Origin: Massiliimicrobium timonense
GTDB taxonomy: Bacteria > Bacillota_I > Bacilli_A > Erysipelotrichales > Coprobacillaceae
NCBI RefSeq assembly: GCF_002160865.1
Contig: NZ_NFLJ01000010.1
Location: forward strand, 1 to 64,000
Reading direction: 5' to 3'
Length of the DNA: 64,000 nt
Of the stretch, positions 44,728-46,583 are shown piece after piece. Positions within the stretch are counted from its first letter, which is position 1, and each line of letters starts with the position of its first letter. A program made the position numbers and the translations under genes. Below the pieces are notes generated by a model. The model did no database searches and was not told the origin of the DNA. It was given only the letters and a program-made list of their open reading frames with translations.

Positions 44728-45034
44728 TTGCTTTTATAGATGTTCATTCGATAATAAATGTCATTTTTAAAAAATAAAAATAATCATTCGTTTTATAAAA
44801 TCATTTTTCATCATCACTCCATAAAAAGAACAAAAAACATGTTTTTTTGAAAATTAATTCATTTCTAAAGATAGTATAAAACTCTCTTTTTTCATAGTCT
44901 ACGTTCACAAATATATGCTTTTAGCAATCTTTATGTTATAATATGTCTGTATGATGAAAATATTTTAAAAATTTCTCTGAAAAAAAAGAAAAATCCGTTT
45001 TTTCTGTATATATGAATAATAGGAGGTATTATTC
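44728..45034. other. AT-rich intergenic region between pgk and the Rpn gene
   Basis: About 300 bases with no coding potential. It contains an AAAAAACATGTTTTTT palindrome near 44830-44846. An extended -10 promoter element, TG-T-TATAAT (44934-44942), points toward the Rpn gene with no good -35. The ribosome-binding site AGGAGG lies directly before 45035. Confidence 0.5.
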
Positions 45035-45964
45035 ATGTCTAAGAAAAATTATATGCTCAGAAAGATTTTTGATATTCGCATCAGATCCCTATTCAAAAAC
45101 TGTCATGTCGCTGCTGATTTTATCAATGGCATCCTTTTCTATGAAAACGCTGTGATCCATTATGACGACATCTCTCTGTCCGATTCCAATCTCGATTCCC
45201 ACCTTCCTAATCAAAACATCACCAGAGAGCGTGAACGTGACAACATCTATTTTGTCAACATTGATGGCACAGAATGTCTGATTGGCATAGAGCATCAATC
45301 CCAGATTGATCATGGCATGTTCCAAAGAACAAGAGAATATGATGAGATGAACTACCTTCAGCAGTTCAATCTCTATCGCTCCACTCATCAGATGATTAAA
45401 GGTGTCATGACATTTGTTGTCTACTATGGACAGAAGAAGTGGAAAGCTCCCAGAACATACGAGGACATGATGAACCCCATGCCTCCTGCCTTAAAGGATT
45501 ATATGAATGCTGCATCCTATCCGCTCATTGAAATGAGATACCTCGATCCAGAGAGATTTCATAGCCAGGAGCTTAAGGAGCTAATCATAGGATTAAGGTA
45601 TTTATACAATCATCAATATGATGAAGATCATGATATCACAATCAGCCACGACATTGCAGTCACAATCGCAGCACTGACAAAGAACACACAGATTTATGAG
45701 AAGGTAAAGGAGGAGAAAATTGATATGTGTCAAGCTATCAGAGATTATGGAAAAGAGAACCTAAACAAAGAGAAATCTATTGGAAGAAATGAAGGTATCA
45801 TTCAGACTTTAATTAGACAACTCAAATCAAAGTTAGGACACCTTTCAAAAGACACCCTTGCAACAATTCAGTCAAGCACTCAAGAACAACTTGATTCACT
45901 GACAGTACATATATTTGATATTGATAGTGAGAAAGATATTCTACATTATTTACAATTAAGCTAA
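45035..45964 (+). CDS. Rpn-family nuclease / PD-(D/E)XK transposase-like protein
   Basis: Encodes a 309-residue protein of the recombination-promoting nuclease (Rpn, PD-(D/E)XK transposase-like) family. The nuclease core spans about residues 5-225. The likely catalytic residues are Asp69 in RERDNIYFV and Glu86 and Gln88 in IGIEHQSQ. A charged linker and a C-terminal domain resembling DUF4351 follow (about 230-309, KLGHLSKDTLATIQ). The first two-thirds is visibly richer in G+C than its neighbours (28 of 60 bases in 45181-45240), suggesting transfer. An internal AAGGAGGAG-N9-ATG at 45725 could express the C-terminal domain alone. Confidence 0.88.
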   Translation: MSKKNYMLRKIFDIRIRSLFKNCHVAADFINGILFYENAVIHYDDISLSDSNLDSHLPNQNITRERERDNIYFVNIDGTECLIGIEHQSQIDHGMFQRTREYDEMNYLQQFNLYRSTHQMIKGVMTFVVYYGQKKWKAPRTYEDMMNPMPPALKDYMNAASYPLIEMRYLDPERFHSQELKELIIGLRYLYNHQYDEDHDITISHDIAVTIAALTKNTQIYEKVKEEKIDMCQAIRDYGKENLNKEKSIGRNEGIIQTLIRQLKSKLGHLSKDTLATIQSSTQEQLDSLTVHIFDIDSEKDILHYLQLS

Positions 45965-46220
45965 TTTAGATATCAAGGAGAAAGTTGATATGTGTCAAGC
46001 TATCAGAGATTATGGAAAAGAGAACTTAAACAAAGGGAAATCTATTGGAAGAAATGAAGGTATCATTCAGACTTTAATCAAACTACTCAAATCAAAGTTA
46101 GGACACCTTTCAAAAGACACCCTTGCAACAATTCAGTCATGCACTCAAGAACAACTTGATTCACTGACAGTACATATATTTGATATTAATAGTGAAGAAG
46201 ATATTTTCCAATTTATTTTA
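45712..46220 (+). repeat. Tandem direct duplication of the Rpn C-terminal coding segment
   Basis: The segment beginning GGAGAAAATTGATATG near 45712 recurs from about 45977 with an offset of 265 bases and high identity through about 240 bases. Differences are mostly single substitutions, with more divergence at the last 25 bases. The second copy is in another frame relative to the full gene, and a stop at 45957-45959 closes that frame upstream. Confidence 0.95.
45725..45964 (+). CDS. Possible intragenic small protein: C-terminal domain of the Rpn nuclease (RpnS-like)
   Basis: An in-frame ATG at codon 231 of the nuclease gene is preceded by AAAGGAGGAG with nine bases spacing, a stronger ribosome-binding site than many genes here. 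It would yield a 79-residue protein beginning MCQAIRDYGKENL and containing the DUF4351-like helices. In E. coli Rpn genes an internal start of this kind makes RpnS, which inhibits the full nuclease. Here this is inference from layout. The purine-rich site also simply encodes Lys-Glu-Glu, so it may be coincidental. Confidence 0.4.
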   Translation: MCQAIRDYGKENLNKEKSIGRNEGIIQTLIRQLKSKLGHLSKDTLATIQSSTQEQLDSLTVHIFDIDSEKDILHYLQLS

Positions 46221-46223
46221 TAA
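45990..46223 (+). CDS. Free-standing duplicate of the Rpn C-terminal domain
   Basis: Encodes 77 residues beginning MCQAIRDYGKENLNK and including KLGHLSKDTLATIQSC. It is nearly the same as residues 231-309 of the preceding nuclease, with a different last few residues. It has no nuclease core. Its own AAGGAG lies nine bases before the ATG, the same spacing as the internal site in the full gene, and the frame is intact. It is either a remnant of a tandem duplication or an expressed stand-alone copy of a regulatory or antitoxin domain. The intact frame and ribosome-binding site favour expression but do not prove it. Confidence 0.6.
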   Translation: MCQAIRDYGKENLNKGKSIGRNEGIIQTLIKLLKSKLGHLSKDTLATIQSCTQEQLDSLTVHIFDINSEEDIFQFIL

Positions 46224-46280
46224 GCATTTTCATTTGAACACACTTTTAAAAAAGGCATACATTAATATAGGTGATAATTG

Positions 46281-46583
46281 ATGTATGTCAGTATAGAACA
46301 ACTTATTCAAGATCCGCAGAATATTGTTATTGATTTAAGAGAACACGAATTATTTCAACAACAGCATTTTAATGAAACTATTAATATTCCTCTTAGTATT
46401 TTTAATTCACAAATTTCTTTTCTTCCATTTGATAAGTCAATCTATCTAATTTGTGAAACAGGCAAAAATGCAAAAAAACTTTCAAAAAAACTTCAAAATG
46501 AAGGTTACCAATGTTTTGCTATTCCTTATGGTTTCACTTTATTAAAAGAATATGCAAAAAGCTCATCACAAAATATTGAATGA
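46281..46583 (+). CDS. Rhodanese-like domain protein
   Basis: Encodes a 100-residue single rhodanese domain, cytoplasmic. Typical segments are VIDLREHELFQQQHF (the substrate-side DxRxxxE pattern) and the active-site loop CETGKNAKKLSKKL, with the catalytic Cys present. Sulfur transfer is likely, but the acceptor is unknown. I start at the ATG at 46281; a TTG directly before it is the alternative. It ends at a bidirectional terminator facing eno. Confidence 0.85.
   Translation: MYVSIEQLIQDPQNIVIDLREHELFQQQHFNETINIPLSIFNSQISFLPFDKSIYLICETGKNAKKLSKKLQNEGYQCFAIPYGFTLLKEYAKSSSQNIE

Follow-up and report, generated by a model that had tools for sequence, protein, structure and literature searches.

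The window analysed here, a stretch of 64,000 nucleotides, carries an Rpn-family nuclease gene in housekeeping surroundings, with pgk on one side and a rhodanese gene followed by eno on the other. The C-terminal tail of the nuclease has its own internal start codon, and a second, free copy of this tail lies downstream of the gene. The features are as follows.

44905-45034, + strand: leader/promoter region, with homologs at unrelated Rpn loci in the genus (blastn)
45035-45964, + strand: rpn gene (RpnL, 309 amino acids), PF04754 core and PF14261 tail
45707-45715, + strand: internal Shine-Dalgarno sequence, AAGGAGGAG, ending nine bases before ATG 45725
45725-45964, + strand: intragenic rpnS (79 amino acids, DUF4351 at 3e-8, internal start), predicted antitoxin
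45975-45980, + strand: Shine-Dalgarno sequence of the free copy, AAGGAG, ending nine bases before ATG 45990
45990-46223, + strand: free rpnS copy (77 amino acids, 77 codons, DUF4351 alone at 1.2e-8, above the Pfam cut-off), 95% direct repeat

The initial annotation had described the internal ATG with its Shine-Dalgarno sequence at nine bases, which proved exact to the base on re-inspection, and an intact downstream ORF with AAGGAG at nine bases and a spacing of 265 bases, all coordinates of which were confirmed. The direct repeat joins 45711-45945 to 45976-46210 (235 nt, 95% identity, spacing 265) and is far beyond chance expectation. Of the 78 codons compared, 15 are not the same in the two tail ORFs; eight of these are within the last 12, and the C-terminal tips read DILHYLQLS and DIFQFIL. 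From the start codon to the end of the domain the two are equal in length (76 residues each) and in their number of four-residue repeats. The left edge of the unit shared with other Rpn loci falls at about 44904-44910, as blastn of the window against two of these (L015 and L016) begins at 44904 and 44909, respectively. Immediately 3′ of the pair, at 46278-46583, lies the gene for a small rhodanese-like protein; a similar gene is found beside Rpn in genome G004 and on other contigs in G002 and G003, and it was not found in G001.

The identification of the gene as an Rpn nuclease held up, on family matches and intact catalytic residues. PF04754 (YhgA-like) matches residues 14-190 (4.7e-11; 43.1 bits against a gathering cut-off of 21) and PF14261 (DUF4351) matches residues 250-306 of the 309-amino acid protein (4.6e-7, above cut-off), giving the same domain order as in the Rpn/YhgA-like nucleases (PF04754, Transposase_31), i.e. 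a core followed by a variable C-terminal tail (Kingston et al, 2017, PMC5350276). The catalytic residues of RpnA are D11, D63, E82 and Q84 (PMC5350276), and the same PD-(D/E)XK motif residues are present in the window gene, where D13, D69, E86 and Q88 appear to be their counterparts as matched by motif. The NCBIfam model of the Rpn subfamily, TIGR01784, scored 9.8 bits, far under its curated cut-off of 52.1, and no PADLOC model matched the locus. Homologs fetched from other genera share only 24-33% identity with the window protein. A structural model of the tail is all-helical (pLDDT 78) and gave no significant Foldseek match at E ≤ 0.001, the reference for the RpnS fold being the RpnAS crystal structure (PDB 7TH0); a sequence search of the PDB returned no match, and the model of the full-length protein was of low confidence, too weak for fold comparison.

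In E. coli, translation from an internal start yields RpnS, an inhibitor of the toxic nuclease RpnL (Zhong et al, 2023, PMC10327210). In a set of 31 different intragenic tails from the family, the longest Shine-Dalgarno match before the internal start averaged 5.32 bases, whereas synonymous recoding of the same residues with Rpn codon usage gave a mean of 3.51, and none of 20,000 simulations had a mean above 4.87. Taken by itself, the window gene shows a weak effect (p = 0.12 when recoded with Rpn codon usage and 0.01 when recoded with that of the window genes), so that the evidence for the internal start is family-wide. Homologs at 24-33% identity retain a coding stretch for KEEKIDMC together with AAGGAGGAG, or a close variant of it, ahead of the ATG. 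The extended motif of Shine-Dalgarno sequence and start is present a single time in the window and absent from all 100 shuffles. These sequence comparisons support the view that the internal start at 45725 is real and likely to be under selection. Selected starts in the 31 tails, catalytic residues and family matches likewise support the intragenic RpnS that had been proposed for this gene.

The initial annotation had read the locus as a nuclease with an intragenic and a second, free antitoxin. Family matches, catalytic residues and selected starts all favour this composition, but the arrangement is not new: it is a further case of a kind described in E. coli, where free DUF4351/RpnS genes of independent origins stand downstream of rpnE (ypaA) and rpnC (PMC10327210). 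The E. coli systems rpnE-ypaA (RpnES) and rpnC with its free RpnCS resemble the window in combining an intragenic RpnS start with a free downstream RpnS gene, and in all of them four-residue repeats follow the start. There, ypaA is translated and its product has been detected, free copies group closest to their own upstream gene in phylogeny, and the addition of one four-residue repeat to RpnC broke the match between L and S and abolished inhibition (PMC10327210). The window differs from the E. coli pairs in having a DUF4351-type tail from Massilimicrobiota (Bacillota) and equal repeat numbers in its two tails, whereas every E. coli pair examined has unequal ones. In the literature library that was searched, no publication later than 2023 on RpnL/RpnS was found.

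A second whole pair is present in the same genome, beside pyrG on contig C74, with different flanks. The block that it shares with the window (44991-46218, 93.8% identity; identical over 44991-45034) starts at the first base of C74 and stops at the end of the free copy, so the pair was most likely copied as a unit. The two cores differ at 16 of 690 bases with four amino acid changes (dN/dS about 0.07), and the two free copies have a dN/dS of about 0.14. Many Rpn genes of this draft assembly (G000) lie at contig ends (contigs C25, C30, C33, C37, C39, C50, C67, C74 and C80), and the family is therefore probably larger than assembled. Such placement, which is typical of repeats, could also speak for the duplicate being an artefact of assembly. 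However, the two window copies differ at 15 codons, and assembly recovered the same architecture independently at C74, where the flanks are different, as well as in further family genomes, one of which (G004) is a single contig; we regard an artefact as extremely improbable.

An ortholog of the window rpn gene occupies the same place between pgk and eno in a congener. At this site G004 has a frame-split Rpn gene with one tail, plus the rhodanese gene, and G001 has before eno a single tail with eight extra residues; with one tail only in both congeners, the free copy is not conserved at that site. Homologs in the genus are often broken, by a frameshift (L015), an internal deletion (L016), a split frame (L098) or a stop (C48 of G000), which points to rapid turnover. 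The single tails at the orthologous locus and the frequent decay of related genes would both fit a free ORF left over as neutral debris when a tail was duplicated or recombined unequally, having no selected role and destined to be lost. Against this, Shine-Dalgarno sequence, start and open frame are retained by the free ORFs of most pairs, the product of ypaA has been observed in E. coli (PMC10327210), and the dN/dS of the free copies indicates constraint, part of which could come from exchange with intragenic tails. Debris thus seems to us an improbable account of the free copy.

Core and tail also differ in composition. G+C content is 39.7% in the core, 31.7% in the tail and 30.8% in the free copy, against 32.6% for the window, and GC3 is 0.47 in the core, 0.23 in both tails and 0.11-0.21 in resident genes. 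In a comparison of 19 family genes that included the window gene (45035-45964), GC3 was higher in the second half of the core than in the DUF4351 part in 18 of the 19 (means about 0.35 versus 0.17). The step marks core and tail as compositionally different modules and does not date a transfer. A G+C-rich core had been taken to suggest transfer, but recent transfer does not follow from it, as the step recurs in 18 of 19 genes and an ortholog sits at the pgk-eno site of a congener.

A scan of related genomes for rpn genes followed by stand-alone tails, which had been put forward as a check, recovered similar pairs in four genera of the family (g1, g6, g12 and g19). A free downstream tail also accompanies an Rpn gene of a different subfamily in the same genome (L083:516-1856, on contig C23 of G000), where the gene's repeat region exceeds that of the free copy by eight residues. 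In a wider sample of the phylum, DUF4351 matches were confined to 10 of 343 genomes, nine of them in the window's family. The structure of the gene would account for the recurrence of free copies: with a ribosome-binding site and a start codon included in each Rpn tail, a duplicated or displaced tail is a ready-made gene. A role of free RpnS as phage counter-defence was dropped, as no match to a phage-borne free RpnS was found in 50,697 phage records or in viral contigs; plasmid carriage was likewise dropped, with just two distant matches at 26% identity.

The length from start to domain end is a multiple of four in 43 of 47 tails, and it allows repeat numbers to be compared between intragenic and free copies. 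Repeat number is unequal in eight of ten family pairs, the window being one of the two matched exceptions. Lengths in residues (intragenic/free) are as follows.

Equal: window 76/76; L096 96/96
Unequal: C74 84/76; C25 100/84; C23, by 8; L097 72/68; L102 80/84; L103 88/80; L105 88/80; L106 92/88

The 16 E. coli haplotypes examined, nine distinct ones of rpnE/ypaA and seven of the rpnC pair, are unequal without exception, K-12 included; within the rpnE set, the number of repeats in the intragenic tail shows no correlation with that in the free one (r = 0.06). In K-12 (L122:1905-3002) ypaA has one repeat more, the rpnE tail being without the four residues KLEG that are present in ypaA; this ypaA, which has been called a second RpnES, may therefore be non-cognate to rpnE. 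The mismatch may already have been seen by Zhong et al (PMC10327210). The intragenic tail is the longer one in 18 of 24 mismatched pairs or haplotypes, a tendency that is only suggestive, since this is a hand count and the haplotypes are related.

Adjacent tails were mismatched in 8 of 10 pairs (a table that includes L104, a pair of two free tails, and omits C23) and non-adjacent tails of similar identity in 33 of 44, these last pairs not being independent. With adjacent and non-adjacent tails so alike, nothing indicates that neighbours are held to the same repeat number or to different ones. Selection for matching repeats is not seen here, adjacent tails being no better matched than non-adjacent ones, and selection for mismatching repeats does not follow either, as independent drift yields about the same figure (0.6 matches expected among the nine rpnE haplotypes). 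The proposal that specificity could evolve separately from the toxin fits these data, with uncorrelated repeat numbers in rpnE and most pairs unequal. The companion proposal, that a second free antitoxin raises the dose, agrees only with repeat-matched pairs like that of the window, while in most pairs no inhibition is predicted under the published rule; it is unlikely, judging from repeat numbers, that free copies in general serve as a further dose of one antitoxin.

In the four tails of this genome, no variable site sets the intragenic copies apart from the free ones; four sites group by locus and four crosswise, so that movement of tail segments between positions or loci is probable. The nearest relative of the window intragenic tail is the C74 free copy (94% in the domain, equal repeat number), and that of the window free copy is the C74 intragenic tail. 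The 3′ end of the window free copy (ATTTTCCAAT...) is shared with the single tail of G001 and not with the window intragenic tail. In the three single-tail rpnE strains of E. coli that were read (3/3), the nuclease ends in the 3′ sequence of the free copy, a kind of fusion also noted by Zhong et al (PMC10327210). Such strains may reflect either loss by recombination or an ancestral state before a new tail arrived.

These observations bear on a reading in which free RpnS is not for its neighbour; it would be a displaced older or alternative tail that maintains immunity against other Rpn alleles of its repeat class, whether at other loci in the same cell or on incoming rpn genes, and that acts as a donor for tail exchange with the nuclease gene. 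Unequal repeat numbers in eight of ten family pairs and in the 9 rpnE and 7 rpnC haplotypes, the loss of inhibition caused by one extra repeat (PMC10327210), the crossing of tail alleles between the window and C74, and the fusion of the free copy's 3′ end to the nuclease in single-tail rpnE strains are all consistent with it. However, the window pair is itself repeat-matched, independent drift would also give mismatch, and displacement could have gone in either direction; as an account of the window we think this reading unlikely. Put in general terms, it is a tentative proposal, and on the doubtful side, that free RpnS genes are generally non-cognate to the adjacent nuclease, being displaced tails that store alternative specificities, confer immunity to other Rpn alleles and swap into the nuclease by recombination between tail positions. 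If such a store exists, toxin specificity and the built-in antitoxin would change together in one step.

Displaced (orphan) C-terminal modules are familiar from Rhs/CdiA toxins, in which a spare tail lies downstream of a gene with a replaceable tail. The likeness is an analogy only, and no homology is claimed; in Rpn the tail is itself the antitoxin and has its own start.

For the window we favour an Rpn toxin-antitoxin module in which the free copy is probably a second, separately evolving specificity module and not a fixed extra dose. The full gene would encode a toxic DNA nuclease (RpnL), the start at 45725 its C-terminal antitoxin (RpnS), and the free ORF at 45990 a second RpnS. Because repeat numbers are equal in the two window tails, cognate inhibition is plausible here, and under the published rule the free copy should bind and block the window nuclease; across the family, free and intragenic tails would drift apart in repeat number and exchange sequence. 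Translation, toxicity, inhibition and defence at the window locus are what we infer from its sequence. Rpn genes are widespread, and an antitoxin encoded in the same reading frame forces toxin and antitoxin to co-evolve, a link that free RpnS breaks. What the comparison adds is that free and intragenic tails are usually unequal in the repeats that set specificity, match no better than tails that are not adjacent, and undergo sequence exchange. If free copies usually belong to another specificity class, to which repeat numbers in the family and in E. coli K-12 point, what they neutralise becomes a directly testable question, for which this genome offers a pair of nucleases and four tails whose repeat numbers are known.

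The same genome also carries three nearly identical Rpn-like genes in tandem on contig C44 (L084, G000:C44:29300-33000); they belong to another subfamily and have tails of 73, 73 and 85 residues.
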